This document shows positions 6,962-59,847 of a stretch of 64,000 nt of DNA, piece after piece. The notes under the pieces are model-generated. The model ran no database searches and was not told the DNA's origin. It saw nothing but the letters and a program-made list of their open reading frames with translations. The DNA is taken from contig NZ_BAJN01000013.1 in NCBI RefSeq assembly GCF_000613725.1, positions 1 through 64,000 of the forward strand, given 5' to 3'. This DNA is from Hoylesella pleuritidis JCM 14110. GTDB lineage: Bacteria > Bacteroidota > Bacteroidia > Bacteroidales > Bacteroidaceae. Each line of letters opens with the position of its first letter. The stretch's first letter is position 1. The position numbers and the translations under genes were made by a program.

Positions 6962-6980
6962 ACGCTTAACAGAAAACAAA

Positions 6981-8915: not shown

Positions 8916-8938
8916 CATACACTTAAACGTTGAATAAG

Positions 8939-13350: not shown

Positions 13351-13357
13351 GCGATTT

Positions 13358-16060
13358 TTAGAATTGAATGTTCAGTCCCACCGTATATGAACGGTAAACG
13401 GGATACGAACGCTTGTCGTCGATACCCAAAGTAGGACCGAAAATATAACTGTTTATCATCGGCGTTAAGCCGCTGTAAGCGCTTATTGTAGCAAGATTGT
13501 TGACGCTGCAAGACACGCGCAGCGAACTGATATACTTGGATTTGAGCGGCACATTCCAGCCGATAGTGAGGTAATCGAAATTGAGATAGTCGCCGCTTTC
13601 AAGCCAATAGTCGGTAGCTGTTTGGTCTTTGATATTTTGCCCGGGGGCCTCGCGCATCACGTTATAGGACGGAAAGCTGGTCATATTCATATACGAGAGA
13701 GCCGTTCCGTTATAAATTTTATGCCCGAAAGCACCGTTTATTTGCAACGAAACGTCGAAAGCCCGATAGCGAAAAGCAATGTTCGAGCCCAACGTAAACT
13801 TCGGAGTGGCTTGCCCGGCGATGTAACGGTCGCCCCCATCCTCGATATTGATGCGCCCATTTCCGTCGAGATCGGCAATGGCATAACGGTAACTGCCGTC
13901 AGCATTGCGCACGAGTCCCGTGCAATGCGGCAGGTAAAAGACACCCAAAGGTTGGCCTACGATCTGGTAAACAATGTTGTTATTGCCGCCGTGAAAGCCT
14001 GCCCCGGTAAGCGTTCCGATGCCGGTGATAGCCGAAGCAGTCAACTTCGTCCCGTTATGAGAGCCGCTCAGCGAGATGAGTCGGTTCTTTTGCCACGACA
14101 GATTGACGTTGATCGTCAGCTCCATATCTTTCTTCGACAGCGGTGTCAGCCCTATTCCTAACTCGAACCCACTGTTACGCATCGATCCGATATTGGCCAG
14201 CAGCTTGTCGTAAGTATACGGTGGCACCGGCACATCATACTGATAGATCATATCCCAGGTCTTAGATGTGTAGTATTCGGCCTTCATCACGATGCGGTTG
14301 TTCATCAATCCAAGGTCGAGACCTATGTTGAAAGTTCCTCGGGTTTCCCATTTCAGGTCGGGATTGGCGTTACGCGTTATACCCATCGTTACTGTCGGCG
14401 CACCGTTCAAAGGTACAACGCCGTTAGGTAGTAATGCCCGCATCGAGTAATAGGCATCTATACCGCCGATGTTTCCTGATAAACCATAACCCGAACGCAA
14501 CTTCAACAGGCTGAGCCAACTGGCCTTTCGCAACCAAGGTTCGGCTTTTGCGTCCCACTCGAAAGATACAGATGGGAAAAGTCCCCACGTATGATGTTTA
14601 CCCACCAACGAACTCCCGTCAGCTCGACCGGTAACCGTAAGTTTGTATCTACCGCATAAGGTGTAATCCAATGAGCCCATCACAGAGCCAAGCGATGGGT
14701 CTTCATAATCGCTCCCAGTGCCTCCGTAAGGCCGAAGAGCCCCTGCCGCCAGATTGTTATACCCCAATTCGTTGGTGGTAAAACCTTTGACTAACGTCCA
14801 AAAGCCCGTTCGGCGCGCCTTCTGATACTCTCCGAGAAGCGTTGCTTCAAGTCTATGACTGCCCCAAATGCGGTTATAGGTAAGCGTGAGATTCGTAAGC
14901 CAATCCTCACTTTTATGTTCTCCACGGTAGGCTTCGCCCTGCGCAGCCACCCAAGTGGGGTGAAACAGCGCCCGTTCGGTCGAGTTGAACGAATAAGAAG
15001 CAAAGAGCAACGCTTTCAGATCAGGTAAAACGTCGAATGTAAGACGCAGATGTGTATTGAAATTAAGGTTCCGTGTGTCGTCCTTATCACGCAAAAGCGC
15101 CATCGGCGGAGCCGTTTGCGAGGCTTCGGTATTTCTATCCCATCCTCCTGATGCATTCATCGCAGTACTGAAAGTGGGGTTTTGCGTGGCGGCAGAATAA
15201 AAGAGTTTCTGTATATCAAAGATGTCTTTATCTTGTCGGGAAGAGCCGAACACCCCGAGTTCTATCAGCAGTCGGTTGTCGAATGCCCGTTGTGTGAGGT
15301 CTAATTTGGCTACAAAATTGTTGTAACGGAATGTCTTGATAACCGTGCGATGCCCCAAAAAGCCGAGCGAAGCACGATAACCCGAATTGTCAGAACCACC
15401 TCCGAACGCCACGTGATGAGTCTGAACCAGGCCCGTTTGCGTGACAGCGCGCAGGAAATCAGTATCGAAACCGCCGTCGTTATAGGCTAATCCTAAGGCT
15501 TTCGACGTAGAAACATATTCCGATGCACGCAACATCTGGATACGTTTATACACTGACTCGACCCCGATATTGCCGTCGTAAGTGATATGGAATTGCCCGA
15601 CGCCTCCCTTTTTCGTTGTCACTACAATAACGCCCGACGCCCCGCGAGACCCGAATTGGGCTGTTTCGGCAGCATTTTTCAAAATAGTGAAACTCTCGAT
15701 ATCGGCCGGATAGATGGTGCTCAACGTGGAGAGGTCGGCCGAAACGCCATCAATGAGTACCAATGGATCATTACCGCCAGTAACGGAAGTGGTTCCCCTC
15801 ACACGCACACTACTGAGAGCGGCCATTCGGTCGGCGCCATTGGCACTTATATTCACACCTGCCGCCTGTCCGTTCAGTGCATTCAGCGGATTGATAATGA
15901 GGCCTTTATTCATCCTGATTTCGGTCACCTTGTCTACCGATCCCAAGCCAACGGTCCACGGGATAGAGTCCTTATGCAATTTAATCGGCTTTTTCTGGCC
16001 CCTCGCCTGAACACAAAAGGCAACAAAGAATAAGGCTGAAACCAATAACCATCTTTTCAT
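13358..16060 (-). CDS. SusC/RagA-family TonB-linked outer-membrane protein (susC2), no N-terminal beta-sandwich
   Basis: TonB-dependent SusC-type importer of 900 residues. I start at ATG 16060, which gives a signal peptide (MKRWLLVSALFFVAFCVQARG) and fits the promoter at 16103-16133; a longer frame to 16165 would read through that promoter. Unlike the other SusC proteins here, the signal peptide is followed within about 40 residues by the plug (NPLNALNGQAAGVNISANG to GSRGASGVIVVTTKKG), with no carboxypeptidase-regulatory-like domain. The barrel is complete and ends in an aromatic residue (YTVGLNIQF). It pairs with susD2, 7 bp downstream. Confidence 0.92.
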   Translation of the reverse strand: MKRWLLVSALFFVAFCVQARGQKKPIKLHKDSIPWTVGLGSVDKVTEIRMNKGLIINPLNALNGQAAGVNISANGADRMAALSSVRVRGTTSVTGGNDPLVLIDGVSADLSTLSTIYPADIESFTILKNAAETAQFGSRGASGVIVVTTKKGGVGQFHITYDGNIGVESVYKRIQMLRASEYVSTSKALGLAYNDGGFDTDFLRAVTQTGLVQTHHVAFGGGSDNSGYRASLGFLGHRTVIKTFRYNNFVAKLDLTQRAFDNRLLIELGVFGSSRQDKDIFDIQKLFYSAATQNPTFSTAMNASGGWDRNTEASQTAPPMALLRDKDDTRNLNFNTHLRLTFDVLPDLKALLFASYSFNSTERALFHPTWVAAQGEAYRGEHKSEDWLTNLTLTYNRIWGSHRLEATLLGEYQKARRTGFWTLVKGFTTNELGYNNLAAGALRPYGGTGSDYEDPSLGSVMGSLDYTLCGRYKLTVTGRADGSSLVGKHHTWGLFPSVSFEWDAKAEPWLRKASWLSLLKLRSGYGLSGNIGGIDAYYSMRALLPNGVVPLNGAPTVTMGITRNANPDLKWETRGTFNIGLDLGLMNNRIVMKAEYYTSKTWDMIYQYDVPVPPYTYDKLLANIGSMRNSGFELGIGLTPLSKKDMELTINVNLSWQKNRLISLSGSHNGTKLTASAITGIGTLTGAGFHGGNNNIVYQIVGQPLGVFYLPHCTGLVRNADGSYRYAIADLDGNGRINIEDGGDRYIAGQATPKFTLGSNIAFRYRAFDVSLQINGAFGHKIYNGTALSYMNMTSFPSYNVMREAPGQNIKDQTATDYWLESGDYLNFDYLTIGWNVPLKSKYISSLRVSCSVNNLATISAYSGLTPMINSYIFGPTLGIDDKRSYPVYRSYTVGLNIQF

Positions 16061-16102
16061 TTCGTCGCAGTATTTGAGAATAACGAATATTATATTTGCT
16101 GA

Positions 16103-16133
16103 CAAAGATAAACAAAAAATAATAAATTGCAAA
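16103..16133 (-). promoter_or_regulatory. Promoter of susC2-susD2
   Basis: On the reverse strand TTTG (16133-16130), 19 bp, TATCTTTG (16110-16103): a textbook Bacteroidota promoter. The start codon lies 42 bp downstream of the -7 element. Confidence 0.8.
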
Positions 16134-16300
16134 CGTTTATTATTATTAATCACTACACCATACATCCTTATTTCCCAAAAAATTCATCATAAAGGAAATC
16201 CTGAAACACAACTCCCTATACCAAGTCTCTATACTATTGAATATCAATTATATAGAAAATTCGTCGCAAATAACAGTTACACACAGTATAATTTAATATA

Positions 16301-28966: not shown

Positions 28967-29022
28967 TCAGAAAGTGTACCCTAAACCAATCAAGAAAGTG
29001 TCAAGACCGTAGTCAGCAAATG
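28904..29022. repeat. 59-bp tandem duplication of the PorV-like gene 3' end
   Basis: Bases 28904-28962 align with 28963-29022 at about three quarters identity (shared runs include TTCAGAA and TAGTCAGCAA). The right copy encodes the gene's last residues (FADYGLDTFLIGLGYTF). The left copy, beyond the stop, still reads LADYGFYTFL in the same sense. Confidence 0.65.
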
Positions 29023-29911
29023 TGCGGTTGTAGGCGACATTGAGTTTGAGGCCTGCAAATTCGCCTCCTGCACCGAAAGTAATGGCATTTGCTGCCTTGT
29101 CAGAAAACTGGTAGCCCATTCTAAGGGAGACCATCTTGTTGTAGGTATACTCTAAGCCTGTACCTACGAGTGTTTCGTGGGCAGCCTTTGGTGTAAAGTG
29201 GCGACACGACAGCGCATAGGTCAGCGCGTGTTGCCGGGCTATGTTCACATTCCAATCGCCGCCTACAGCGACCGATGTCGGCAAACTATAAGGCAACCCC
29301 GTATCGTTGAACTTCACCGGTTTGCCGAGGTCGAGCAGTCGGGCACCTATCGTGAGGTGTGTCGGTAGGGTTGCTGATAGACGAAAGGCTTTCTGGTAAG
29401 CTGCGCCCACCGAGAAAGCGTATGCGTTGGTAGAAGTCGCGGCGCGACTCTTGGCGTAAGTGGCCGTAGCATAAACGGCCAACTCGGGCACAACAGCGAA
29501 CGAATAGCCTAGGTCGATGGTTAAATCGTAGGGCGAGATCGTGTTGCGCTGGTTTGTTTGCCCATTGCCTTGTACGGTTAATCCGCCTTGGTAGCGAACG
29601 CCTGCGAGCAAAGCCGATCTGTTGGCAAACTTGTATCCTGCCGAGGCTACGTATTGCATCAGTCGGCCGTCTTCCGATTTGGGATAGGCTATTGTACTCG
29701 CGTCTATCGATAGCCGGCGCGGGCCGAAAGTAAGCGCAGCGGGATTGCTGTAGATATACATTTGATTAGTGCTGCCGAGCATCGTGTTACCCATGGCCGC
29801 GGTACGGATGTCGGGGTTTGCTTCGAGAATGGGCAATATGCGGCTCTGCGCCGATGCACCTAAGACGATGCTCGAGGTCAGGATAAAGATTGCTAATATT
29901 TTTCTGTTCAT
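28967..29911 (-). CDS. PorV/PorQ-family outer-membrane protein
   Basis: Outer-membrane barrel of 314 residues with a signal peptide (MNRKILAIFILTSSIVLGASAQ). The start of the mature protein, LPILEANPDIRTAAMGNTML, followed by YSNPAAL, is the hallmark of the PorV/PorQ (UPF0164-like) group. The end (LNVAYNRTFADYGLDTFLIG then LGYTF) is also typical. PorV carries T9SS cargo to the attachment complex and PorQ acts in the sortase complex. This gene follows the S8 protease gene by 9 bp, and that protease ends in a T9SS-like sorting domain, so a dedicated shuttle is possible (inference). It may also be a stand-alone paralogue of unknown function. A decayed duplication of the last beta strand follows the stop. 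Confidence 0.82.
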   Translation of the reverse strand: MNRKILAIFILTSSIVLGASAQSRILPILEANPDIRTAAMGNTMLGSTNQMYIYSNPAALTFGPRRLSIDASTIAYPKSEDGRLMQYVASAGYKFANRSALLAGVRYQGGLTVQGNGQTNQRNTISPYDLTIDLGYSFAVVPELAVYATATYAKSRAATSTNAYAFSVGAAYQKAFRLSATLPTHLTIGARLLDLGKPVKFNDTGLPYSLPTSVAVGGDWNVNIARQHALTYALSCRHFTPKAAHETLVGTGLEYTYNKMVSLRMGYQFSDKAANAITFGAGGEFAGLKLNVAYNRTFADYGLDTFLIGLGYTF

Positions 29912-29920
29912 AGTGTTGTT

Positions 29921-32773
29921 TTATTTCTTGATAAAGGTGTGTTTGCTCGTAACGCGGTCGGTTTTCAGTAGCAGGTAATATGTGCCGGGGGCGAGGCGAT
30001 CGATGCCCAGAGTTATTTCGTGCGTCTTGGCGTCGGGCTCTATCGTTTCGTCGATCAGTTTCTGCCCGCGCAACGAAGTTACGATCGCTTTCACTTGCCG
30101 AACGCCGCTACGCATCAGGGCTTTGATGTAGCTGTGAGCCGGAACGGGATAAACAGCGTTGGTGTCGGGTGCATTAGCTCCAGTAACGATTACTTGAATG
30201 GTGGTCGAAGTAGATTTCACCCCATCGGTAACCGTGATGGTAACGGTGGCCGTACCTCGCTTGCCAGGCGTGAGGCGTAACTTGGTACCAGTGATTTCGG
30301 CTTTCGCTATGGTCGCATTGTTGGTGCTTGCGCTGAAGCTTAGGGTGTGATGGGGCATTGCGTCGAAAATCTGGGCAAGGTCGATCTCTACAGCTTTATC
30401 GTTCTCGAAAAGCGAAACGTCAGCTAGTTTTTTAGTCTTCGTAGGAGCCTTGTGCGATATTACCTCGTAGGCTATCTTGCGCGTGGTTTTCCCGCCGAGC
30501 TGGTCGGTTAGTGTAATGTCGAATTCGTACTTACGGCGTGCCTACTTTGATGAGAAGATCGAATCCGTTGACAACGCGCCTAAACTCTACGCCGCTGGGC
30601 AGCTGCGTCGTGGTGTAAGTCCAGGTGTGGTTGTCGGCGTCGACCACTGGCAACAGTTTGTGGTAATAGGGCTGCGTGTCGAGCAATTTCAGATTGTCTT
30701 CGACCATCGCCGTGAACTCGGGCGCGTGATTGAGTCGGGTGCGGAATGTTTTCTCTGCAGTGCGAGATTGGTTCCCGAATCGATCTCGTGCCGTAACCTT
30801 TACGATGTATTCTTGGTCGGTTTCGAGATCGGTAAATTCATATTCCATACCCTCACCCAGGCTTTTGTTGTACGAAAAAGCAGTGGTCGTTTGTACAGGT
30901 TTGGATGGATCGACCTTTTTGTAGAGCGCAATGTCGTAGGCAAAAGCCGTTTTCTCGGCGTTGAGCGCATCGGCATCGACCGTTACTTGCCAGCTGATTT
31001 TGGCATCGTAATACCCCTTGGTGGGGTGGGTACTATAGTCTTCTACCTCGATTGTGGGCGCGTCAGGGCTCTGCGTCTCAGCATCAGACAGGGCGAAGTT
31101 GGCATCGATATATCCTACCCCCATCTTGCCAACCAGGTTAGCCTCGGGCCTCGCAAGATAAGGCTGCTGGCTTTTACGGCCGAGAGGATTCGGCTGCGGA
31201 GATTTTCGTTGGTGAAATTAGGATTGTCTTTACCGAATTTCGAAACGATGAGCGCGGCGATACCCGTAACGTGCGGCGTGGCCATCGATGTGCCTTGAGC
31301 GTAAGCGTAGTTGTTATCGGAAGGCAAAGTGAAGTCGGTATTGGGATAGGGGCCGGTCTTCATCGTGTAGTATGCTTTAGGCACGGTACTTAGGATTCCT
31401 TTCGGCACCTCTTGACTCTCGGTGGTTCCGCCTGGTGCCAATATATCTACCCATGGGCCTTTGTTCATATAGTCGGTAGGGATGCCGGTGCTACTAAAAG
31501 CGCCTACAGCCACTACGCGTTCGTATGATGCGGGAATCATCTCAATATCGTTCTGACTGTCGTTACCCGAGGCAAAAAATACCAGTCCGCCTTTCATATA
31601 CGAACCGAGCTTTTTCTTTCCAGTGGGGTCACAGCCCGCATAGTCGGTAAAATAATCGATTCCTTCTTTCAACAACGCAAATTGCGATTTGAAGAGTTTG
31701 TGGAAGTACTCGTTGTTGAGATGCTTCTTCCGATCGAAAGCATATCCCCACGAGCAGTTGCATACGAGGGCACCGTTTTCGGCAGCAAACTCGAAAGCCT
31801 TGGCAATAGCTGCCGAAGTAGCCACTTCGTTAGCAGCATCGTCTCGGCCGTAGATTTCGCAGCTCATCAGTCGTACGCCCGAATTGGCTTGACCGTTTCC
31901 GCCAGCCACACCACTGATGCCAACACCATTGTTATTTCTCGCAGCAATAGTACCGGCCACATGTGTACCGTGGGCTCCGGGAATGATCACATTAGGATCG
32001 CCTTGGCCACTCTCGGCATACCAGAAGTTTCGGCCGTGTATTTCTGCGCCTGTGGCTTTGTCGGTACCTTTCCAAGCAGAGGCAGCCAGGTCTTCGTGGT
32101 TGAAATCAATACCCGAATCCATTACGGCTACCACTACGTTAGGGTCGCCAGTCTCTTTCTGCCAAGCAGGGAAAAGATCGATGTCTGCCCCCTCTTTAAA
32201 CCAGCCATAACTCTCGATGGTGGTCATATAGTGCCACTGGTACTTTAGGTAGGGATCATTGAAACCGAGATATCCCTGGCCGTCGTTGGCCGAAAGGAGT
32301 TTGCTTGGATCGATCGGTGCCCGACTGGCTGGTCGGTAACTCACCTTTGCAGGAACTATCTCTACGTTTCCGTGTGCTTTTTCTATGGCCGGATCTTTTC
32401 GAAGTTCGTCTAGAACCTGATTCACATCCTTACTCTTATCAAACCTCACGACAAACCAGCGATCGAGTCCGCGACTTCTTTTCAAGTCGGCGTATTCGGT
32501 TGTCATATCGAAGACTTGTTCTACCTTGATTTCTGTATCATCAAAAACTTTGGCACGGGTAAGATGCTCTGTTGCTGCGCGAGTTGTAATTTCAGGGCTC
32601 GCTTTAAGTTTGATAAAAGCCATTCCCGGTTGTAGGGGAAGTTCGTCTATCGCCTGATTACCGGTATGATTTGGCTCGGTTCCTACCGACAGCAAATTGT
32701 CGTCGTGGCAAGCCGAAAACAAGCAGACAGATATGAATGAGCAGACAAGTGCTCTGTATAATGATTTTTTCAT
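29921..32773 (-). CDS. S8 subtilisin-like serine protease with FN3-like region and T9SS type A sorting domain; two frame breaks
   Basis: Predicted extracellular protease, about 950 residues across two breaks. In order: lipoprotein-like signal (CLFSAC, Cys22), an I9-like propeptide (about 50-140), catalytic domain with Asp219 (VVVAVMDSGIDFNHEDL), His268 (HGTHVAGTIAARN), oxyanion Asn404 (FFASGND) and Ser496 (GTSMATPHVTG). A fibronectin-III-like region (ISWQVTVDADAL; ITVKVT-type strands), an Ig-like repeat and a C-terminal sorting domain (AVYPVPAHSYIKAL; APGTYYLLLKTDRVTSKHTF) follow. The frame slips near 31157-31164 (one base missing; restored reading LYLARPEANLVGKMGVG) and back near 30533-30545 (restored reading KYEFDITLTDQLGGK). 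Each segment is intact on both sides. It follows the BACON lipoprotein gene by 13 bp. The combination of lipobox and T9SS domain is unusual. Confidence 0.85.
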
Positions 32774-32786
32774 ACGTGTCGAGATT

Positions 32787-34508
32787 CTATAAATTAAAAC
32801 GTTTCTTGATAATGTCTACGTAATGTTTGCTCTTATAGTAAGAGACAACCGTGCGAGTGCTCTGCGGTCGCATATCGATGAGGTCTTCTTCACCACGGTA
32901 GAAAGTAACATATCCGCTGTCGTCTTCGCGTACAAATCCGTATCCTTTCTGCTCAAGAGCAATTCTTACATTTCTTCGTAGCTTGGTAACATAGTATTCC
33001 CACACACCGGGTTCGCCTTCCAGTTTCCGCTCATAAAATAAGTCGCCACCGGTATAAAACACTTGGCATAGACCCACAGTTCCGCTATATTCGGCGTCGC
33101 CCCTTAAACCGGCATCAATATCATCTTTGGTTACTCCTTGCCAGTTGAAATAGTAAATAACATAGGCCAGTGAGCCTGCGTCGTTGCTAGGATTCTCGGG
33201 TACAAACAACAGCTTAGAATACTTGCAAAGTGGGTCTTGAATTTCGGTAGTTACTTGCTCCGAATTGAACTCGTTGTGATAATCGGGTTTCATTCCGCGT
33301 TTCTTTTCAAACTCGATGATTTGTTCTAGTTTGAATTTCTTGTCGTTCAGATGTTGTGAACCACCGATGGGAAAACTACTTATGGAACCATCGGTGAGTC
33401 GCAATTCGTTTGGCGACTCGATATATTTCATACAAGCACTCTTGAAGAGGCCTCCGCCCATCCAAGAATAATTTTCAACTGCGTTGTATATATGCAATAG
33501 TCGAGTCTTTTCGTTTTCCTCGCAATAGAATTCCGTTTCATCTTCATTGCGTTGCTTATTTCCCTGTTTGAAATTATTCTGGGTTAGCCAAGATTCGAGA
33601 GATTCTTTCTTAAACGTTTCTCCTTTGGGAGCCTTTAGCCAAGCCGTGTTGATAATCCCTGTGTAATAATTGCGACTATAAAGGATATGCGGGGCTTGTT
33701 CTCCGGGAGAGTGGAAAACATAATACATCTTTTCTTGTTCTACATTGTAGGGCAACAAGAAATCTCGCTCAAAAGCTAAATCACGAATGTTGTTTCTTTC
33801 ACCTTCCAAGGCAACGACACGATCTAGTTTGAAATTGTCGAAATCCCAAACTGGCAGTTGGAACTGTACATATCCATTTTGCACCACGTTGAGCAAATAA
33901 TACTTATTACCGTTGGTGAGAAACAGTTTTTCGTTTCTGCTGGTTTGTGCCCACTCGCTGTTACGGTTGATGGCTGTGAGATTGAGTAAGAGTTTGTGTT
34001 CTTTGAGGTTCACCTCGTAACTGAGCCAGCTATTTTTTTCTTTATTCACCTGCTCCACCCGCCAATTATCGGTATTGGTAATTACGTTGAGTGCGATAGC
34101 CGTATGTGCCTCGTGATTGTATACTGCTGTTCCATTGCTTCCTTCGATAGAGATGTACGGAGCTGTACCAAATTGTGTTACTGTTATAGAATATTTTCCA
34201 GTCACAGTATTAAGAGTAATTTGGGTTTGGCGCTCGTCCGACAAATTGTTTGCCTGTGCAGCAACTACCAGTTTGCCATCTTTTTTCTCTACGGTTAGCC
34301 ATCGGCCGTAAGATCCTTGATCTACGCTCCATTTTCCTGAGAGCGTAGTAAACGCTACGACTTTGGTTTCTCCTTCTTGTTTGAGAGTGATAGTTTCTGC
34401 CGCATCAACAACGACATCCGATGTGCCGTCTAATATCAAATCCTTTTGGCAAGCGCTCATCAACATTGCGACGATGAGAAATGCCAGTATTCTAAGTTTT
34501 TTATACAT
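32787..34508 (-). CDS. BACON-domain surface lipoprotein
   Basis: Lipoprotein of 573 residues, starting at ATG 34508 (lipobox MLMSAC); longer in-frame starts would overlap susD3. The N-terminal half has two or three BACON-type beta-sandwich domains (WSVDQGSYGRWLTVEKKDGK; NWRVEQVNKEKNSWLSYEV; YYLLNVVQNGYVQF). The C-terminal half, about residues 210-573, has no family I recognise. BACON domains in Sus-type loci bind glycans, mucin or proteins, or act as spacers. Lying 29 bp after susD3 and 13 bp before the S8 gene, it is probably a surface accessory that holds substrate for the protease/SusCD pair (inference). Confidence 0.82.
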   Translation of the reverse strand: MYKKLRILAFLIVAMLMSACQKDLILDGTSDVVVDAAETITLKQEGETKVVAFTTLSGKWSVDQGSYGRWLTVEKKDGKLVVAAQANNLSDERQTQITLNTVTGKYSITVTQFGTAPYISIEGSNGTAVYNHEAHTAIALNVITNTDNWRVEQVNKEKNSWLSYEVNLKEHKLLLNLTAINRNSEWAQTSRNEKLFLTNGNKYYLLNVVQNGYVQFQLPVWDFDNFKLDRVVALEGERNNIRDLAFERDFLLPYNVEQEKMYYVFHSPGEQAPHILYSRNYYTGIINTAWLKAPKGETFKKESLESWLTQNNFKQGNKQRNEDETEFYCEENEKTRLLHIYNAVENYSWMGGGLFKSACMKYIESPNELRLTDGSISSFPIGGSQHLNDKKFKLEQIIEFEKKRGMKPDYHNEFNSEQVTTEIQDPLCKYSKLLFVPENPSNDAGSLAYVIYYFNWQGVTKDDIDAGLRGDAEYSGTVGLCQVFYTGGDLFYERKLEGEPGVWEYYVTKLRRNVRIALEQKGYGFVREDDSGYVTFYRGEEDLIDMRPQSTRTVVSYYKSKHYVDIIKKRFNL

Positions 34509-34537
34509 AGAGCAATATTTTAGTTTCATAAAACAGA

Positions 34538-36150
34538 CTATTTGTCCCAACCTGCATTCTGCTTGATTTTCTTGTTTATGGTAATTTCATTCTTGGGGAA
34601 CGGCCATACAAACCTATAATTGTCTGCTCGAATATTCATCGTTTCTCTAAACCCGGCAGCATAGAAAGAGCTCGGCACTTGGTAGTAACCTTTTGCACCT
34701 TGGTGTGAGCGTCGACCTATGCCTTGTTTCCAGCGACGCAGATCCCAAAGGCGGAAGCTTCAAAGGCCAGTTCACGGGCACGCTCGTTCTTTATCTCTTC
34801 GTAAAGCGCTTCTCCATCCAACGTAGTAACGGGCATTCCGCGTGAAATGCGAAGCGTATTGAGGTATTCCTTTGCGGCATCCAAGCGGTTCAGCTTATGG
34901 GCTGCCTCGGCTGCGATGAGATATTGCTCGGCAATACGGAAAGGTTTGGGTGCTTGGTTCCCGTTCGGAACATAACCTCCCCAATGTGTGCTGTTAAGTG
35001 TAGCGTAATTGGGATTACCTTTGAATTTAGATATTACATAAAGCTCTGTAGAATTATTCACATCACTGACCGTTGTCTTCACAAATTCAAAGAGCGACAA
35101 GGCACGGTGATCGGTTTCTGTTGCGAAGAGCGTATTCATCACCTCTTTCGTAGCTACATAAGGCGGTTTGTTGTAGTCGCCGACTCTGCTTGGTACACCT
35201 GCACCATCCCAATGAGTGGTGGTAGACAAGTCGGCACCATAAAGATTGGTAACTGTGGGGATTTCATTTTCTTTTGCTACATAAGGTTGCCAAATCTGTT
35301 CTACACCGCTATCATAAAACCACATTTGGGCAAAAGTGTCTTCGCGAGGATCTATCTTCTGCTGACTATTTAGTTTTGCTTTATATGCCGTTATCAGAGG
35401 ATAAATGCCTTTGTCGATGAGTTGCTTAGCTTCGGCAAACGCCTTTTCCATATCACCTATATAAAGGTATACGCGTGCACGCAATGCCCTTACGGCATCG
35501 GCACTTATTTCCGTATTTCCAGCTTTCGTAGAAACGTCGGTTAACAGTGTTTCGGCCTCTTGCAAATCCTTTAGTATTTGTTTGTAAGTTTCGCGGTTCG
35601 TAGCACGTCCCGGTTTTTCCAATGGTTTAGGGATAAGTGCCAGTGGTATGCCCAGAGTTTTATCTGCCGTACTCTCCTCGTAGGGTTCTCCCCACCGTAG
35701 GGCAAGATTAAAGTGATAGAATGCGCGTGCAAAATAGGCGTCTCCCAAGTAATGGTTACGATTGGGTTTCTCCTCTTCTCCCACTTGCAAACGTGGTAGT
35801 AACTCTATTACCACGTTAGCGTCTACTAAGGCTGCATAATAAGAATGGTAAATCTCTTGTATCACATTGCTTTCGGGCAATAAAGTCCAGCCGTGAAAAT
35901 CAGCGTAGAGACTGTTGAAAGCAGCATGGGCATTGAGCATATCGGCTTGGGCTTCTTGGGGCAGTACATAGCCTCCACCAAATTTACCACGCAAGGTAGA
36001 ATAAATACCGTTATCCCATTTCTTAGCATCTTGCATATTTCTGAAAGAGTCTTCATAATTGATATAGTCGGCTGGTTCGCGATCTAAGTCACACCCCTGT
36101 ACCACTGTTACCAATAGCAATGCGAAAAATAATATCTTACTCGTTTTCAT
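34538..36150 (-). CDS. RagB/SusD-family nutrient-binding lipoprotein (susD3), 3' frame break
   Basis: Partner of susC3, 27 bp downstream of it. Lipobox VVQGC (Cys20), then DLDREPADYINYEDSF, helical core (RAFYHFNLALRWGEPYEES) and the RagB/SusD C-terminal region (FRIAEQYLIAAEAAHKLNRL; ERARELAFE). The uninterrupted frame stops early at 34717. Inserting one G near 34755-34760 (GAAGCTTCC read as GAA GGC TTC C) continues as GFRLWDLRRWKQGIG and ends NKKIKQNAGWDK at a TAG in 34538-34540, the normal SusD ending. The full protein is then about 537 residues. The BACON gene starts 29 bp beyond. Confidence 0.88.
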
Positions 36151-36177
36151 ATATCTATCAAAATGTGTTATAACTGG

Positions 36178-39177
36178 TTATAAACCTATTTCTACGCCGA
36201 AGCTTACCTGTTTGGTGTTGGGATTAACGCCATAGGATATACTGCGGTTAATCTCGGGATCAATACCCCTAAACTTCGTAAAGGTAAGCAGGTTTCTGCC
36301 TGTAAAGAAGAGTTTGACCGACCGCACAACCTTTTGTCTTCCCAAAGCCTTGCGAGGCAAATCGTAACCAAGCGTGAAGTTTTTAAGCCGCATGAAAGAG
36401 GCATTCTCTAACATTTTAGAGTCAAGGTAGGTACTTTGATGATTGTCTTTCCGAACCCATTCAAGAGATGGAAATTCGGCATTGTCGCCCTCTTTCTTCC
36501 AATAGTCGAAGAGCCTACGCGAACCGTTGAAGTTGCTTTCGCGATCGCGAATATAGTAGTCGTTCTCATAGCGTTGCTTATCCATCGAAAGCATGTGTTT
36601 GCCAAGGGCGAAGAAGAAATCGGCATTCACGTAGAACCCTTTCCAATATGCCGATATGCCCCAACCGCCGGTAACGGGTGTATAGGCGTTGACGCCTGAG
36701 TTTTGCTCTAAAGAGCTGGTATATTCTGTTGCCACATCGCTATCGTCGCGCCTTGTTTGTCCGATATCCGTACCGGGCTTATACCATTCGGGAACACCGT
36801 TCTTGGGGTTCACTCCCTTATAAAGCGGAACCATAAATGTAACGGGCTTACCTACGATATAACCAAGTTGAGACCCCGGCTCGTACCAATGATCGCGACC
36901 CTCGAAGAGTTCTAACACCTTATCACGGTTGTAGTTGAAGTTGGCATTGGTAGATACACCCCAGTCTTTACCTCTCAAGATATCTACATTCAGCTGACAG
37001 TCAATACCGTGATTGAGATATCTGCCCACATTTTCATACCGAGTAACATAACCGAGGCTCCCTGTGGGTAAACCGGAGCTGTAAGACAAGGGAACTTCGA
37101 AGAGCATATCGCTCGTAATACGATTGTAGTATTCCAGGTTTACATCTATTCTGTTAAACATACGCGCTTTTACTCCGATAGTAAGTTTGCTTTGCCGTTC
37201 CCATCCTAAGTTAGGGTTACCGTCGCTGATAAATCCCATACTCATTTTGCCCATCTTTTGGCCTACTTTCCCCACGTAAGCTGCTGTGCTGTAAGGCGGG
37301 ATAGACGAGTTACCCTGTGTTCCGTAGCTGCCTTTTACATCGAAAGCATTGAGCCATGTTGCATTTTTAAGGAAGCGTTCTTCCTTGGCTTTCCACAAGA
37401 GCCCAACCGACCAAAACAGTCCGTTACGCTTGTTCTTCCCAAAACGCGAAGAGGCATCGTTGCGTAAAACAAGGTCTACAAAATATTTCTCTGCATAATC
37501 ATAAGATATCTGTGTAAAGAACGACAAGAAAGCGTAGCCCGTTTCTTCTTCGCTCACGGCATAGTTTCGTGTTACGTTGTTGAGCAGATAAAGCCGATCA
37601 TCGAGCAATCCGGAGCCACTTGCCGAAAAGCCATCGTCTTTATAATCGATATACTCGTGCCCGAGCAATGTAGTGAGATGATGATCGCCGAAAGCCATTT
37701 TGTAGGTTGCCGTATTGGTAACAGTAATATTAGAGGCCTTGGAAAAACCGCGCGACGAGCTACCGTTGCCATAAGCACGATAATAGCTGGGCAACGTACG
37801 CGAACGGTTGGTACCGTAGTCGAGCTCCAAACCTACCATCGAACGAATCGTAAAGTCTTTCAGTGGTGTAAGAGTAAGGCTACCGTTGGTAGACAGAATG
37901 AAAGCATTCGACCGAGCGGGATTGGTAGAGATAACGTGCCGCGGGGTTGCGATATCAAGCAGCGGTACGCGCTCTAATTCCTGCCCCGTATTAGGATCGT
38001 AGGGAGAAGCGAAAGGAGCGTTCATTGCTGCCAAACCTCCACCCACTGCATTATTATTGCCGAAAGGCGACAGACGTGTATCGTCGTAAGACACCTGTGT
38101 GTTGATGTTGGCGCGCACCCAGTCGTTAAGCTTTGCTCCGAGGTTCATTCGCCCGAAAGCTTTCTTATAGCCCGACCCCATACGCAAACCGTCTTGACTA
38201 AGCGCACCGCCCGAGAAATAGTAGTTGACCGTGTTTGTGCCACCCGACACAGATATATCGGCCGTATACATCGGAGCCGGCTGATATACGTATTTATACC
38301 ATTGGAAATCTGTTTCTTTGAAATACTTTTCTTTCAGCTGTGCTATTTCGGTTGCGCTATATATTCCTGTTTCCTGATAATAGCGAAGCAGTTCGGGGCC
38401 GCTCATCAATTGGTCGAAATAATCGGTATTGGCCAGCGACGAAACCGCATATTGTGCACGAATATTGATGCTGGCCCGCATCTCCGATTTCCCTCTTTTG
38501 GTGGTGACATACATCACTCCGTTGGCTGCCCGAGCTCCATAGATAGAGGTAGCGGCGGCATCTTTCAAGAATTGTACGCTCTCGATGTCGTTGGGGTTCA
38601 TTGCTTGTAAAACGCCCATGCTCACCTGCATACCGTCTAAGATAACCAAAAGCCCCGTGCCAGCACCGAGCGAACCTTGCCCGTGCAAGGCCATCGACAA
38701 CTTTGAAGAGGGCTCGCCCGACGACGAAAACACCTGCAATCCACTCACCTTGCCTTGTACGGCGTCGAGCGGATTGGCTACGGGTTTCATTGCAAGATCT
38801 TTGGCACCCACTTTCACTACTGAAGCAGAGGTATTGGCTACCTTACGTTCCATATAGCCCACAACTACCACGTCATTGAGCATAAGATCAGCCGGTTCCA
38901 GTTTCACATTCATCTCAGGCTTGGCCGTTAACTCCCGACTGGTATAGCCCATAAAGCTGAATGTAAGTTTCTCGCCTACTTTAACCTTAATTGAGAACTT
39001 ACCGTCTACGTTAGATACTGTACCCGTTTTGGGTGCTGACTTGGGAATTATGCTCACTCCAGGCAACACGTCTCCATTTTCATCGGTGACGATTCCCTTA
39101 ACGGTGATAGTTTGGCCTAAGGTGGAAATAACTCCTAAAAATAAACAAAGGGCAAACATCCAAATTCTTCTTTTCAT
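36178..39177 (-). CDS. SusC/RagA-family TonB-linked outer-membrane protein (susC3)
   Basis: First gene of the protease operon: 999 residues with signal peptide (ALCLFLGVISTLGQ), carboxypeptidase-regulatory-like domain (ITVKGIVTDENGDVLPGVSI to LTFSFMGYTSRELT), plug (DVVVVGYMERKVANTSASVV; IYGARAANGVMYVTTKRG) and barrel ending TKQVSFGVEIGL. Complete and in frame. It imports a substrate captured by susD3; the downstream protease and BACON lipoprotein suggest peptides or glycopeptides rather than simple glycans (inference). A good promoter lies 136-170 bp upstream and a 41-bp-period repeat array further upstream. Confidence 0.94.
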   Translation of the reverse strand: MKRRIWMFALCLFLGVISTLGQTITVKGIVTDENGDVLPGVSIIPKSAPKTGTVSNVDGKFSIKVKVGEKLTFSFMGYTSRELTAKPEMNVKLEPADLMLNDVVVVGYMERKVANTSASVVKVGAKDLAMKPVANPLDAVQGKVSGLQVFSSSGEPSSKLSMALHGQGSLGAGTGLLVILDGMQVSMGVLQAMNPNDIESVQFLKDAAATSIYGARAANGVMYVTTKRGKSEMRASINIRAQYAVSSLANTDYFDQLMSGPELLRYYQETGIYSATEIAQLKEKYFKETDFQWYKYVYQPAPMYTADISVSGGTNTVNYYFSGGALSQDGLRMGSGYKKAFGRMNLGAKLNDWVRANINTQVSYDDTRLSPFGNNNAVGGGLAAMNAPFASPYDPNTGQELERVPLLDIATPRHVISTNPARSNAFILSTNGSLTLTPLKDFTIRSMVGLELDYGTNRSRTLPSYYRAYGNGSSSRGFSKASNITVTNTATYKMAFGDHHLTTLLGHEYIDYKDDGFSASGSGLLDDRLYLLNNVTRNYAVSEEETGYAFLSFFTQISYDYAEKYFVDLVLRNDASSRFGKNKRNGLFWSVGLLWKAKEERFLKNATWLNAFDVKGSYGTQGNSSIPPYSTAAYVGKVGQKMGKMSMGFISDGNPNLGWERQSKLTIGVKARMFNRIDVNLEYYNRITSDMLFEVPLSYSSGLPTGSLGYVTRYENVGRYLNHGIDCQLNVDILRGKDWGVSTNANFNYNRDKVLELFEGRDHWYEPGSQLGYIVGKPVTFMVPLYKGVNPKNGVPEWYKPGTDIGQTRRDDSDVATEYTSSLEQNSGVNAYTPVTGGWGISAYWKGFYVNADFFFALGKHMLSMDKQRYENDYYIRDRESNFNGSRRLFDYWKKEGDNAEFPSLEWVRKDNHQSTYLDSKMLENASFMRLKNFTLGYDLPRKALGRQKVVRSVKLFFTGRNLLTFTKFRGIDPEINRSISYGVNPNTKQVSFGVEIGL

Positions 39178-39312: not shown

Positions 39313-39344
39313 CAAATATATACAATATTTTATAAACTATACAA
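39313..39344 (-). promoter_or_regulatory. Promoter of the susC3-susD3-BACON-S8-PorV operon
   Basis: Reverse-strand TTG (39344-39342), 21 bp, TATATTTG (39320-39313). Transcription would start near 39306, leaving a leader of about 130 bases before susC3. Confidence 0.65.
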
Positions 39345-40389: not shown

Positions 40390-42353
40390 TCAATCCTGGG
40401 GATGGATGTTCGTGACTTCAAGCATCCCGGCTACTTCGTCGTTGACGCGTTTGGCAAACTCGTCCATCCGCATTGTGGCTTGTTCGCCACCTCCTTGACA
40501 GCGCATAGAGACGAGTCCGTCAGCGGCCTCTTTCTCGCCGACGATGACCATATAGGGTACGCGCTTGATTTCGTTGTCGCGAATCTTGCGACCGATCTTC
40601 TCGTTGCGGTCATCGATCGTGGCACGTACACCTTGCTCGTCAAGATATTTGGATACACGCTTGGCGTAGTCGTTATATTTCTCGGAGATGGGTAGAATGG
40701 CTACTTGGTCGGGCGTGAGCCAAAGCGGGAAATGGCCGGCCGTGTGCTCAATGAGTACAGCGCAGAAACGCTCGAGCGAGCCGAACGGGGCGCGGTGTAT
40801 CATCACCGGCGTCTGCTTGGTGTTGTCTTCGGCGGTATATTCCAGCTTGAAACGTTGCGGCAGATTGTAGTCTACCTGAATGGTCCCGAGCTGCCAGCGA
40901 CGGCCGATGGCGTCTTTCACCATAAAATCGAGTTTGGGACCGTAGAAGGCTGCTTCGCCGTAAGCAATCTTGGCATCGAGGCCTTTCTCCTTGCAGGCTT
41001 CTTTGATGGCAGTTTCGCTTTCTTCCCAGACCTCATCGGAGCCGATGTATTTCTCGGTATCTTTCGGGTCGCGCAGGCTGATTTGCGCTTCGAAGTCTTC
41101 GAATTGGAAGATCTTGAACACAGTCTGAATGATGTCCATCACACGTAGAAACTCGCCTTTAACTTGATCGGGGCGACAGAAGATGTGGCATCGTCTTGCG
41201 TGAAGGAGCGCACACGCGTAAGGCCGTGAAGCTCGCCGCTTTTCTCATATCGATAGACCGTACCAAACTCTGCAATGCGCAGAGGCAGGTCTTTGTAAGA
41301 CCGGGGCTTCCAGGAGAATACCTCACAGTGGTGCGGACAGTTCATCGGTTTAAGCATATACTCCTCGTCTTCTTCCGGAGTGCGGATCGGTTGAAATGAA
41401 TCCTTACCGTAATGCGCATAATGTCCGCTGGTGATATAAAGGTTCTTTGAACCGATATGCGGCGTAATGACCTCCTGATAACCGAATCGTTTCTGAATCT
41501 TGCGCAGCATATCTTGCAGACGCAGACGCAATTCCGTTCCTTTCGGAAGCCAGATAGGAAGTCCTTTTCCTACTCTCTCGGAGAACATAAACAACTCCAT
41601 TTCTTTTCCGATCTTGCGATGGTCGCGCTTCTTGGCTTCTTCAAGCATCTGTAAGTAGTCATCGAGCATTTTCTTCTTGGGGAAAGTAATGCCGTAAATG
41701 CGTGTCATTTGCTCACGTTTGGCATCGCCGCGCCAGAATGCACCGGCCACGCTCGTGATTTTGATGGCTTTGATGGCACCAGTGGACACGAGATGTGGAC
41801 CGCGACAGAGATCGGTAAAAGCGCCTTGTGTGTAGGTAGAAATGGTGCCGTCTTCCAGATCTTGGTCGATATGTTCGCACTTATATTCCTGCCCATCGGC
41901 CCCGAACTCTTTAAGGGCATCTGCCTTCGACACATTCTTTCGCACAACGGGCTCGTTTTTCTTAGCCAGCTCGCGCATTTTTTCTTCAATCTTCGGGAAA
42001 TCGCTCTCGCTGATGACATCCCCCTGCTTAGGCATTACGTCATAGAAGAAACCATTTTCGATGGCAGGCCCGAAACCGAACTGAATGCCGGGATAAAGTT
42101 CTTGCAGCGCTTCGGCCAGCAAATGCGCCGACGTATGCCAGAAGGTGTGCTTACCTTCTTCATCTTCAAATTTGTAGAGTGCGATGTGCGCATCTTGGTC
42201 GATCGGCCTGTTCAGTTCTACCGTCTCACCATTAACTCCGCAAGATACAACGTCGCGGGCGAGAGCCGGTGAGATGCTCTCGGCGATTTGTAACCCGGTT
42301 ACGCCCTTTTCGTATTCACGAACAGAGCCATCCGGAAATGTGATTTTAACCAT
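40390..42353 (-). CDS. thrS: Threonyl-tRNA synthetase, internal frame break
   Basis: Essential class II aminoacyl-tRNA synthetase that charges tRNA-Thr, about 654 residues if one base is restored. Domains in order: TGS ([20 protein letters not shown]), editing domain with HTSAH, catalytic core with zinc-binding MNCPHHC and motif 2 ([19 protein letters not shown]), motif 3 region ([11 protein letters not shown]) and anticodon-binding domain ([17 protein letters not shown]). The N-terminal frame reaches a stop at 41139, while the C-terminal part is open from 41142 in the next frame. Adding one base near 41186-41190 (GATGCCACATC read as GAT GCn CAC ATC) restores [17 protein letters not shown]. 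As the gene is essential, a sequence error is the likely cause. It is last in the SPOR-ruvX-def-TPR-thrS cluster. Confidence 0.93.
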
Positions 42354-53985: not shown

Positions 53986-54017
53986 TTTGGTTAGTCGCAT
54001 CTTTTTAACTATATTTG
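53986..54017 (+). promoter_or_regulatory. Promoter of the S9 peptidase gene
   Basis: TTTG (53986-53989), 20 bp, TATATTTG (54010-54017), with ATG 54047 30 bp beyond. It rules out the longer in-frame start at 53987. Confidence 0.8.
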
Positions 54018-54046
54018 CAAGCATTAAAATAAAGGAAGATATTGCA

Positions 54047-56797
54047 ATGAGAAACTTTCTATTATCCGTTAGTTGCCTGTTGGCCGCGTGCCAAGTACAG
54101 GCCCAAAAGAAACCTTTGGACCATTCGGTTTACGACAGTTGGCAGAGCATCACATCACCGCAGATTTCCGACCGCGGCAATGTGCTGACTTATCTCATCA
54201 GTCCGCAGCAAGGCGACACAACACTCGTTATTCGTCAAAATCGGAATGGGCGTGAGATACGCATTCCACGCGGTTGCAAGGCCCGTATCTCGGCCGATGA
54301 GCACTTTGTAATCTGTACTATCAAGCCCCTGTTTAGCGTCATCAGACAAGCTCGAATCAAGAAAACGAAAACTGAAAAAATGCCCAAAGATTCATTGGCT
54401 ATCATCAATCTGACGAACGGGAAAATCAAGAAATTCAGAGACATTGAATCGTTCGGATTTGCCAAGAGAGGCGGATCAGCCGTAGCTTTCTTGTCGACCG
54501 ACACGACACTGATACAAAAAAAGTTCCGTAACAATAAAGATGTAGGTAAACCTTTGCTCATTTATCATTTACAAACGGGTGTCATCGATACTGTTCGATA
54601 TGTAAAGTCATACACATTCAATCGGTCAGGCGATTGGTTGACCTATACTCTTCAACCTAAGAAAAAGAAAACATTAGTGGGTGTTTATGATGTGCCTGCA
54701 CATCTACAAACAGTTGTCTCAGACACTTGCGTTTATCACTCACTCCCCAAATACAACTTCTCAGGCAACGAAATGCTGTTCCTTGCCTCACAAGATACGG
54801 CCTCCAGCGGATCGAAAAAATGTTACTTGTGGCGGCTTAAGCGTGGAGAGCAGAAAGCCAAGTTGTTAATGGCTCCCACAGACGTGCGCAATATGCCTTC
54901 GGGTTGGGGACTCAGCGAGAACAGTTCGCCCTATTTCAGCCGAGATGGGAAGCGTATTTTCGCAGGAATCTCACAGTATATTGCTCCCAATGACACTAAC
55001 ATCGTATCTTTTGAAAGTCCTTCTATTGATATCTGGAATTATGATGCCGACGAACTTCCGCCGATGCAAAAAGCCAACAGGAGTTCTATTGCCAGACGCA
55101 CTTGTCTCGGCATTTACGACGATACAGCACATCAGTTGGTTCCGCTGACCCATTCGCTGCTCGACAAAGTATATCTTGTACAAGAGGGAAATGCGCCGAT
55201 CGCCTATTCCAAAGACATCACACGCACGATTGTTTCGACTCAATGGGACATCCAGGCGCCCGAAGATATCAGTCTCATCGATCTCCGTAACGGAATGCGA
55301 AAGTTAGTTGCATCGCCGGCGTGCAGCCAACTTACAGCCTCACCAGGTGGCAAGTTTCTTGCATGGTTCGACCTCAAAGCCCGCAATTGGATGCTTTACA
55401 GCGTCGCGACAGGACAGACACGTAATATAACCGAAAAATTAAGAGTGAACTTTTGGGATGAACAGGCAGATACACCGAGCTTTCCCGAACCATACGGGAT
55501 GGCCGGATGGACGCAAAATGACAAAGAGCTGTTGATCTATGACCGCTATGATATTTGGCGAATATCTACTAACGACGGATCTGCAATCAATCTCACAGGC
55601 GCTGAAGGTCGAAAGACTTTGCGAACATTCCGCTATCTCAACACAAAAGATTCAGATGATGACCAGAGCATAGCACCGAACGAACGCTTATTATTGAGCG
55701 TTTTCGATACCAAAACCAAAATGCACGGTTTCGCTTCAACCTCTGTTACAAGTCGTACAGCCCCTACTGTTGCTGTACTCGATGGTTATTCCTATTCCTA
55801 TCCCATCAAAGCAAGAACAGCCGAGACTTATGTTTACACTCGCGGTAACTTCCAAAAACCGATGGATGTGTATCTTACCGATAACCGATGGCATACGCAA
55901 AAACAACTGAGCCATATCAATCCCCAACAGAAGAACTACAATTGGGGTACCGTAGAGCAGATTCATTGGACAGCGTATGACGGTACGCCGCAAGAAGGAA
56001 TGTTGTATAAGCCCGAAGATTTCGATGCAAAGAAAAAATACCCCGTATTGATTTACTTCTACGAACGCAATTCGGATAATCTTTATAATTATATAACGCC
56101 GCAACCGAGTTGGTCGATCATTAACATCACTTTCTATGTGAGCCGTGGCTATCTCGTATTCGTTCCCGATATCACCTACAAGACCGGAATCCCCGGCGAG
56201 TGTGCCTTCAACAGTATTTGCAGCGGAGCTGAGGCTTTGGCAGCCAATAGCTGGGTAGACAAGGATAATATGGCGATACAAGGACAGAGTTGGGGTGGCT
56301 ATCAGGTAGCCTATCTGGTCACCCGCACTCGTATGTTCAAAGCAGCCGGGGCAGGTGCGCCCGTGGCTAATATGACCAGTGCTTACGGTGGTATCAGATG
56401 GCAAACAGGAATGAGCCGGCAATTCCAATACGAGCAGACACAGAGTCGCATCGGTCGAAATTTATGGGATTCTCCCGAGACTTATATTGCTAACTCGCCC
56501 CTTTTCAAACTTCCGAATGTTACAACACCCGTTCTTATTATGCACAACGATGCCGACGGAGCTGTGCCTTGGTATCAAGGCATCGAAATGTTTATGGGTC
56601 TCCGACGTTTGGGCAAGCCCGCGTGGCTGTTAGAATATAATGACGAGGCTCACAATCTGCGGCAACGCCGCAACCGAAAAGATTTAAGTATCCGTCTGCA
56701 ACAGTTCTTCGATTACTATCTGAAAGGTGCTCCCGAGCCGTCGTGGATGAAGAATCAGCTTTCGATTCTGCGTAAAGGACAAGAATTCGGATATTAA
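54047..56797 (+). CDS. S9-family (prolyl oligopeptidase-like) serine peptidase
   Basis: Exported peptidase of 916 residues from ATG 54047, with signal peptide (MRNFLLSVSCLLAACQVQAQ). A long N-terminal beta-propeller-like region (WD/PD40-type strands such as NSSPYFSRDGKRIFAGI) is followed by the alpha/beta-hydrolase domain. The catalytic triad is Ser748 (GQSWGGYQ), Asp837 (HNDADGAVPW) and His869 (DEAHNL). Such periplasmic enzymes clip short peptides, often from the N-terminus (DPP-like), but the exact specificity cannot be read. A possible lipobox (LLAAC) sits inside the signal peptide before VQAQ cleavage, so lipidation is possible. It is a single gene with its own promoter. Confidence 0.9.
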   Translation: MRNFLLSVSCLLAACQVQAQKKPLDHSVYDSWQSITSPQISDRGNVLTYLISPQQGDTTLVIRQNRNGREIRIPRGCKARISADEHFVICTIKPLFSVIRQARIKKTKTEKMPKDSLAIINLTNGKIKKFRDIESFGFAKRGGSAVAFLSTDTTLIQKKFRNNKDVGKPLLIYHLQTGVIDTVRYVKSYTFNRSGDWLTYTLQPKKKKTLVGVYDVPAHLQTVVSDTCVYHSLPKYNFSGNEMLFLASQDTASSGSKKCYLWRLKRGEQKAKLLMAPTDVRNMPSGWGLSENSSPYFSRDGKRIFAGISQYIAPNDTNIVSFESPSIDIWNYDADELPPMQKANRSSIARRTCLGIYDDTAHQLVPLTHSLLDKVYLVQEGNAPIAYSKDITRTIVSTQWDIQAPEDISLIDLRNGMRKLVASPACSQLTASPGGKFLAWFDLKARNWMLYSVATGQTRNITEKLRVNFWDEQADTPSFPEPYGMAGWTQNDKELLIYDRYDIWRISTNDGSAINLTGAEGRKTLRTFRYLNTKDSDDDQSIAPNERLLLSVFDTKTKMHGFASTSVTSRTAPTVAVLDGYSYSYPIKARTAETYVYTRGNFQKPMDVYLTDNRWHTQKQLSHINPQQKNYNWGTVEQIHWTAYDGTPQEGMLYKPEDFDAKKKYPVLIYFYERNSDNLYNYITPQPSWSIINITFYVSRGYLVFVPDITYKTGIPGECAFNSICSGAEALAANSWVDKDNMAIQGQSWGGYQVAYLVTRTRMFKAAGAGAPVANMTSAYGGIRWQTGMSRQFQYEQTQSRIGRNLWDSPETYIANSPLFKLPNVTTPVLIMHNDADGAVPWYQGIEMFMGLRRLGKPAWLLEYNDEAHNLRQRRNRKDLSIRLQQFFDYYLKGAPEPSWMKNQLSILRKGQEFGY

Positions 56798-56917
56798 TTC
56801 TTTACGCGAATTTAGGATAAACTTGTATTCTGCAAGTGAGGAAGGAGGTATAAAAGACAGACTCAGACGGTACCAGAGAAAAAGTGTTATATATGCAATG
56901 TCGTAGGACAGAATTAA

Positions 56918-56955
56918 AAATATGACGTCATATTTGCTCGGATATGACATCATAT
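56918..56955. promoter_or_regulatory. Twin palindromes, operator-like
   Basis: AAATATGACGTCATATTT (56918-56935) is a perfect 18-bp palindrome. ATATGACATCATAT (56942-56955) repeats its core with one change, 22 bp on, i.e. two DNA turns. This layout fits cooperative binding by a dimeric regulator. The run of T after the second copy also allows a terminator role. Confidence 0.5.
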
Positions 56956-57381
56956 TTTTTTTTCGAACACATAAAGATTGAACCAGAAACCTTATAATGA
57001 GTTCTCCCTACAAACGGTACTTTTTACCTTAACTTATGGGGTAAGATGAACAATATGTTGCATAAGAAAATGCTTATCCCGAACTCGCATAATTCTTTGC
57101 TTATAGAATTCTAAACATCCAACTACTTAAAGGATTAGAAAACGGCGAAAACAACGTGTCTAAATAGTTGGAAACACAAAAATCAGTAAAACAACATTTC
57201 CGGAGTCTCGAATTGTTCGAAAATGATAAAAACAACATAAAATCTGGATAAAATTATATGGAGCGAATTATATACACTAATTTGCCGGTAAAATTTTAAT
57301 TATACCGAAGAACACATCAGTAATTTTACCAAATTCGACGCAAAATAAACGGTTTACTATAAATACCAAGAAATAGGTATT

Positions 57382-57412
57382 GTAGGATTAAATAACTTCC
57401 ACTAACTTTGCA
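57382..57412 (+). promoter_or_regulatory. Promoter of the TonB receptor-susC4-susD4 genes
   Basis: TTG (57382-57384), 20 bp, TAACTTTG (57405-57412). The leader is about 120 bases long and contains the GTTGAG/CTCAAC hairpin. Confidence 0.7.
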
Positions 57413-57536
57413 AAAAATTTCACAACCAATTAAGAATCGACTTATCTGCTTGGCGGCGAACAATATTAAAATGCCATAGTTGAGTCTCAGGATTCTCAAC
57501 AATAAAAAGAAGCACCATAAGTCTGACAATTTTGTT

Positions 57537-59792: not shown

Positions 59793-59847
59793 CGCAAAGG
59801 CAGACTATATTCGATAAAGCAAGTAGAATCATCTATTATAAAAAAGA

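Follow-up and report, generated by a model that had tools for sequence, protein, structure and literature searches.

The DNA considered here (the window, 64,000 nucleotides of contig NZ_BAJN01000013.1 from Hoylesella pleuritidis JCM 14110) contains, on its minus strand between 28967 and 39177, consecutive genes for a SusC-type importer, a SusD-type lipoprotein, a BACON-domain lipoprotein, an S8 protease and an outer-membrane barrel of the PorV/PorQ family (Table 1). This order, the common strand and the families, first proposed in an initial annotation, were borne out by profile searches. The protease carries a lipobox and ends in a C-terminal domain (CTD) of the type IX secretion system (T9SS) type. 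The five genes had been regarded as one operon. Across related genomes the unit proves real and recurrent, but its conserved core is the S8 protease together with the barrel, and SusC and SusD are an optional addition.

Table 1. Features of the five-gene unit and its upstream flank
Feature	Position	Strand	Evidence and remarks
SusC/RagA-type TonB-dependent importer, 999 aa	36178-39177	minus	TIGR04056, 695.6 bits (cut-off 368)
SusD/RagB-type lipoprotein, frame-broken	34538-36150	minus	Pfam SusD_RagB and SusD-like_3
BACON-domain lipoprotein, 573 aa	32787-34508	minus	PF13004, 3.1e-8; lipobox MLMSAC by eye
S8 protease	29921-32773	minus	Lipobox CLFSA/C22 HDD; Peptidase_S8_N, Peptidase_S8; CTD at end
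T9SS-type CTD (VYPVP...LAPGTYYLLL...HTFIKK)	29924-30154	minus	TIGR04183 (Por_Secre_tail), 25.4 bits (cut-off 23)
PorV/PorQ-family outer-membrane barrel, 314 aa	28967-29911	minus	Signal peptide end ASA/Q by eye
Promoter-like motif TTG-N21-TATATTTG	39313-39344	minus	Upstream of susC
thrS	40390-42353	minus	Upstream neighbour, split by a frame break; outside the unit

The genes are separated by 27 bp (SusC stop 36178, SusD ATG 36150), 29 bp (SusD stop about 34538, BACON ATG 34508), 13 bp (BACON stop 32787, S8 ATG 32773) and 9 bp (S8 stop 29921, barrel ATG 29911). These are the gaps originally reported, and they apply only when three frame breaks are read through, one in susD (near 34757, after which the C-terminal part continues in another frame until about 34538) and two in the protease (near 31130 and near 30535). 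Since the neighbouring gene, presumably thrS from its sequence, is also frame-broken and the assembly is a draft (49 contigs, 93.66% complete), the breaks in all three genes are probably small assembly indels; a genuine loss of function of susD and the protease is a possibility. The Bacteroidetes-type promoter motif has the form TTG-N-TAnnTTTG. The single good promoter of the initial annotation stands in so far as one match lies upstream of susC and a pattern scan of the minus strand over 26-45 kb found none inside the operon, the sole other match being at 28427 before a TetR-like gene, but of 2000 shuffled versions of the 300 bp upstream of susC, 55 also contained the motif.

The protease has the S8 Asp-His-Ser motifs VMDSGI, HGTH and GTSMATP, and it also contains an Ig/Fn3-like region with weak matches. 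Its CTD scores 25.3 with the Pfam model, under the cut-off of 27 for that model, and was modelled as a seven-strand beta domain with block values of the predicted local distance difference test (pLDDT) mostly of 82-90. The TIGR04183 match is the hallmark CTD of type A T9SS cargo. Such cargo has a signal peptidase I signal peptide, normally without a lipobox, whereas a lipobox is present in all 25 of the proteases found paired with a barrel (two by eye).

The barrel is placed above the cut-off for the PorV/PorQ family as a whole (NF033709, PorV_fam; 181.9 bits, cut-off 90) and well below that for PorV itself (NF033710; 74.5 bits, cut-off 250), and the PorV of this genome is encoded elsewhere (C48, 428 bits with NF033709). 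In a tree of 45 barrels, for which 10 of 32 PorV rows were used and L016 and L020 were left out, the PorV rows form one clade and the rows presumed by exclusion to be PorQ form another, each with support of 100/100. The window barrel falls outside both, within a third set not shown to be a single clade. A model of the CTD and barrel together, read through the intervening stop, gives a 14-strand PorV-like barrel, and the best matches of this model in a fold search are two T9SS translocon entries, 8gl6_F (Z 27.0) and 6h3i_F, whose chain F is presumably PorV; the CTD is barely covered by this search, which says little about it. General Pfam and NCBIfam scans of the window proteins, with no dedicated model run, gave no match to a type B CTD or to PorP.

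Related genomes were surveyed from both sides of the pair. From the protease side, PF16361 (Peptidase_S8_N) was searched in 295 genomes of the order and gave 75 matches in 36 of them, 25 of which fall in three genomes of one family, f113. Four of the 50 matches outside f113 are cut by contig ends and were excluded. Among the rest a barrel lies directly downstream of 12 of the 13 proteases with both lipobox and CTD, a count that includes the window (its split gene counted by hand) and two loci with a lipobox called by eye (L079 and L089); the thirteenth protease comes first in an operon of the form S8-S8-barrel. No barrel directly follows any of the four lipobox proteases without a CTD, nor any of the 29 that lack a lipobox, of which 15 have a CTD match. 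The lack of a CTD in others of these 29 is to be read with caution, since the profile derives from S8 proteins that have a lipobox, but the lack of an adjacent barrel is independent of that profile. Several genomes hold more than one pair, each protease with its own barrel (three in G424, two each in G354 and G326). Of six listed Peptidase_S8_N loci outside Bacteroidales, five show, on inspection by eye, a signal peptide that lacks a lipobox, and the sixth (L126) is broken, with its N-terminus missing; none of the six stretches read contained a barrel. The S8 lipoproteins of f113 occur both in arrays and scattered, nearly all with a CTD and with 6-11 S8_N matches per genome (L105 and L106 in G361; L115, L116, L119 and L120 in G262; L117 and L118 in G448), and an unlinked barrel of G262 (L063) adjoins what we take to be an NtrC-like regulator.

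From the barrel side, a search of 151 family genomes at 1e-10 gave barrel matches in 12, one of them the window genome. An S8 protease with a CTD is found directly upstream in 10 of the 11 others, and in the eleventh (G091) the gene upstream of the barrel is presumably amidase-like. The arrangement in Prevotella jejuni and Hoylesella loescheii is lipoprotein-lipoprotein-S8-barrel, and in two genomes of the same genus as the window genome (G092 and G056) the unit is almost that of P. jejuni, a similarity from which the organism would probably be a Prevotella. Of the 10 listed genomes of this genus, the window's own among them, only 4 match the barrel, and the unit is therefore accessory. Pooling of both surveys gives 25 protease-barrel pairs. 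A Fisher test on the pooled pairing table returns 9e-16, but the protease-side counts are preferred, since this table also contains loci that were reached from the barrel and takes no account of kinship. The ordered search that the initial annotation had called for was successful in that the order SusC-SusD-lipoprotein(s)-S8-barrel is present in 9 of the 25 pairs (the window, L019, L020, L022, L061, L064, L069, L089 and L110), spanning families f1, f9, f87 and f106.

The pair is also present where the T9SS component SprA was not found. A search with TIGR04189 at a threshold of 1e-15 did not match SprA in 40 of the 151 family genomes, 20 of them listed directly and the rest obtained by subtraction from 111 positives, or in 18 of the 295 order genomes. 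Of 49 SprA-less genomes searched, 15 contain a PorV_fam barrel. Three of these (G010, G035 and G131) encode a full PorV together with another family member placed with PorQ; in them SprA is probably missing because of an assembly gap. In 8 of the remaining 12 (G008, G036, G062, G080, G112, G126, G255 and G275) the barrel lies directly behind an S8 protease with lipobox and CTD, two of the others are in f113, and the last two (G002 and G091) have a different neighbour and no S8_N. Across 36 SprA-less genomes, the S8-CTD protein and the barrel occur together in 10, the barrel alone in two, the S8-CTD protein alone in none and neither in 24, two of the latter (G013 and G158) having an S8_N protein without a CTD match (Fisher test 2.6e-7, kinship ignored). 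Because presence and absence of the pair vary inside genera g8 and g13 and inside families f9 and f106, a single inherited event is an unlikely source of this link.

As 6 of 14 control genomes matched in the CTD search at E values up to 0.1, one of them over the cut-off, only CTD matches that exceed the cut-off or end an S8 protein were used. The CTDs of four paired proteases (G008, G036, G062 and G080) score 18-22 bits, under the cut-off of 23. The search of SprA-less genomes gave 21 matches over the cut-off, 16 of them on S8_N proteins; only one of the other five (G037, G149, G112:C16, G032 and G080:C4) matches, weakly, the S8-CTD profile that was built. A PorV-family barrel behind a presumably amidase-like gene was seen in two SprA-less genomes without S8_N (L065, 12174-13106; L025, 13582-14514), which raises the question of whether this gene supplies another partner to barrels of this kind.

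The CTD and the barrel also vary together. Distances between CTDs correlate with distances between barrels over 20 of the 25 pairs (r 0.65), with near copies (L016, L024 and L027) and barrels shorter than 290 residues (L020 and L111) dropped. After removal of the rest of the protease a partial r of 0.38 is left, a value reached by 1 of 5000 permutations.

The importer at the head of the window operon has both marks of the SusC/RagA type, a TIGR04056 score above the cut-off and a SusD_RagB match in the adjoining gene. Its best solved relative by sequence is RagA (6sli, 569 bits), from the RagAB peptide importer of Porphyromonas gingivalis, with the next non-Rag chain at 309 bits; among the solved relatives of the window SusD, 8ypt_A ranks best, followed by 3kez and RagB. 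Unlike RagAB, the window importer has a protease gene and a barrel gene behind it, neither of which, we assume, belongs to the rag operon. No carbohydrate-active enzyme or glycosidase family was found among the Pfam matches of the five genes, and the locus does not qualify as a polysaccharide utilisation locus. The initially proposed role in peptide harvesting is thus favoured by the nearness of SusC to RagA, the S8 motifs and the lack of a glycosidase match, and is weakened by the optional nature of SusC-SusD. The BACON lipoprotein is 19-21% identical to four lipoproteins whose genes precede that of the S8 protease in P. jejuni and H. loescheii, with one invariant cysteine among the five proteins; its structure model was discarded (mean pLDDT 39, five alignment rows). 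Elsewhere in the window, two more SusD genes accompany TonB-dependent receptors (3732-9850 and 11734-16165), one of these sets being followed by a gene for an F5/8C-domain protein, and an S9 peptidase gene precedes the genes of two TonB-dependent receptors, all on one strand (53987-63221).

On balance, and with somewhat better than even confidence, we favour a lipid-anchored S8 protease that is also docked by its CTD on its own barrel and feeds a RagA-like importer. The protease would be exported as a surface lipoprotein, with the acyl chain on its N-terminal cysteine as the anchor, and would be held by two hooks, namely this lipid and the docking of the CTD on the barrel. It would sit beside the BACON and SusD lipoproteins and the RagA-like SusC, which may bind and import the oligopeptides that it produces, and the whole cluster would act as a surface protein-feeding unit. 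This interpretation is favoured because barrel adjacency tracks the combination of lipobox and CTD and the pairs persist where SprA was not found, and also because of the tree, the correlated CTD and barrel distances, the 14-strand barrel model and the closeness of SusC to RagA. It is built on gene order, families, the sequence-based lipobox, the CTD and co-occurrence, with a barrel fold that is predicted, and from these we infer surface exposure, CTD docking, a peptide substrate and a single transcript.

Several observations weigh against it. The lipobox calls come from a heuristic of our own and not a trained predictor, and 16 of the 25 pairs showed no SusC-SusD, although some of these loci are cut upstream. 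None of the 23 S8 proteins scored in f113 has an adjacent barrel, though S8-CTD lipoproteins are present there; two of these genomes (G361 and G262) hold one unlinked barrel each, and the third (G448) was not searched for a barrel. The barrels of G002 and G091, which follow another gene in genomes without SprA and S8_N, also do not fit. The lack of SprA in G112 is deduced from its absence among the listed positives, and the T9SS parts covered were SprA and PorV_fam only. Finally, the joint model of CTD and barrel has a mean pLDDT of 60 with five alignment rows, too weak for docking to be judged.

A clearly less probable account, which we consider unlikely, is that the protease is ordinary T9SS cargo, its CTD acting as an export signal through SprA, with the barrel as a duplicated PorV shuttle and the lipobox either incidental or a second anchor. 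The window genome itself has SprA, PorV and PorQ, which also counts against the favoured reading and makes T9SS export of the window protease possible, and the TIGR04183 score exceeds its cut-off. However, eight pairs of a CTD-bearing S8 protease with a barrel occur in genomes in which SprA was not found, barrels are absent from beside all of the non-lipobox S8 proteins even though 15 of these have a CTD match, and the score of the barrel falls far short of the PorV equivalog cut-off. The last result and the SprA-less pairs also tell against the T9SS-type label originally given to the barrel.

A role of the barrel as a FadL-type channel for the uptake of a lipid or a product linked to proteolysis, in an operon shared with the protease for metabolic reasons and without binding to it, is more doubtful still. 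FadL, TodX and related channels come close to the best chain in the fold search (Z 21-25 against 27), a near-equality that detracts from the docking interpretation and because of which a transport role for the barrel is possible, but the barrel tracks the lipobox and CTD rather than the protease as such, and the correlation of CTD and barrel distances goes beyond the catalytic part. Least probable is that the BACON lipoprotein and protease target surface proteins of the cell itself, in maturation or competition, beside a coincidental SusC-SusD, for although SusC-SusD is upstream in a minority of pairs and the barrel is patchy in the genus, the same order recurs in four families and the nearest solved relative of the window SusC is a peptide importer.

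Among known systems, the available text of one study describes PorZ-PorQ and PorU-PorV of P. gingivalis as CTD-retaining surface proteins on barrels of the PorV/PorQ family (PMC10202324), while a sentence in the available part of another, taken literally, pairs the four proteins the opposite way (PMC8545088). The window pair likewise combines a CTD protein with such a barrel. It differs in the protein, which is a lipobox-bearing S8 protease, in the placement of its barrel in neither the PorV nor the PorQ clade, and in its occurrence also where SprA was not found. The former study hypothesises, in the text available, that cognate PorV-like barrels shield the CTDs of their partners from cleavage (PMC10202324); by analogy the S8-barrel pair would fit this hypothesis, with a lipid anchor and SprA independence in addition. 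Type B CTD cargo is described, in the portion available, as anchored at the surface by a cognate PorP/SprF barrel (PMC9143113). A CTD protein and its cognate barrel again go together, but that cargo is exported by the T9SS, whereas the window CTD matches TIGR04183 and its barrel PorV_fam. In BamG-BamH of the Bacteroidota barrel assembly machinery (BAM) complex, a FadL-family barrel binds a surface partner through extracellular loops without the T9SS (PMC12578637). Neither a CTD nor a protease is described for BamG-BamH in the text available, and the window barrel is closer to the T9SS chains (Z 27) than to chains of BAM entries (Z 20.7-21.8). For BamG, the nearest FadL-type case, a PorV-like function is considered unlikely by the authors of that work in the same text, a further point against the docking proposed here. 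No earlier report of an S8-CTD lipoprotein paired with its own PorV-like barrel was found in searches, some of them wider in aim, of the open-licence literature. The S8-barrel pair is a variant of the known CTD/barrel pairs, and is new in its lipobox S8 protease with a barrel of its own.

CTDs are commonly taken as a T9SS export signal, and the presence of the pair in SprA-less relatives was unexpected. We tentatively suggest, as less than an even prospect, that CTD/PorV pairing can operate without the T9SS, with a PorV-family barrel that displays a lipid-anchored CTD protein of its own and perhaps assists in its export; sorting by the T9SS may then be one application of a barrel-and-plug module that is older or has been re-used. 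If a CTD and its own barrel do serve as an anchor without the T9SS, annotation by CTD alone would be misleading, and the recognition of CTDs by PorV-type barrels could be studied without the SprA translocon. The unit would then be a protease counterpart of the glycan-harvesting Sus systems, with the enzyme held beside the importer in a defined way.

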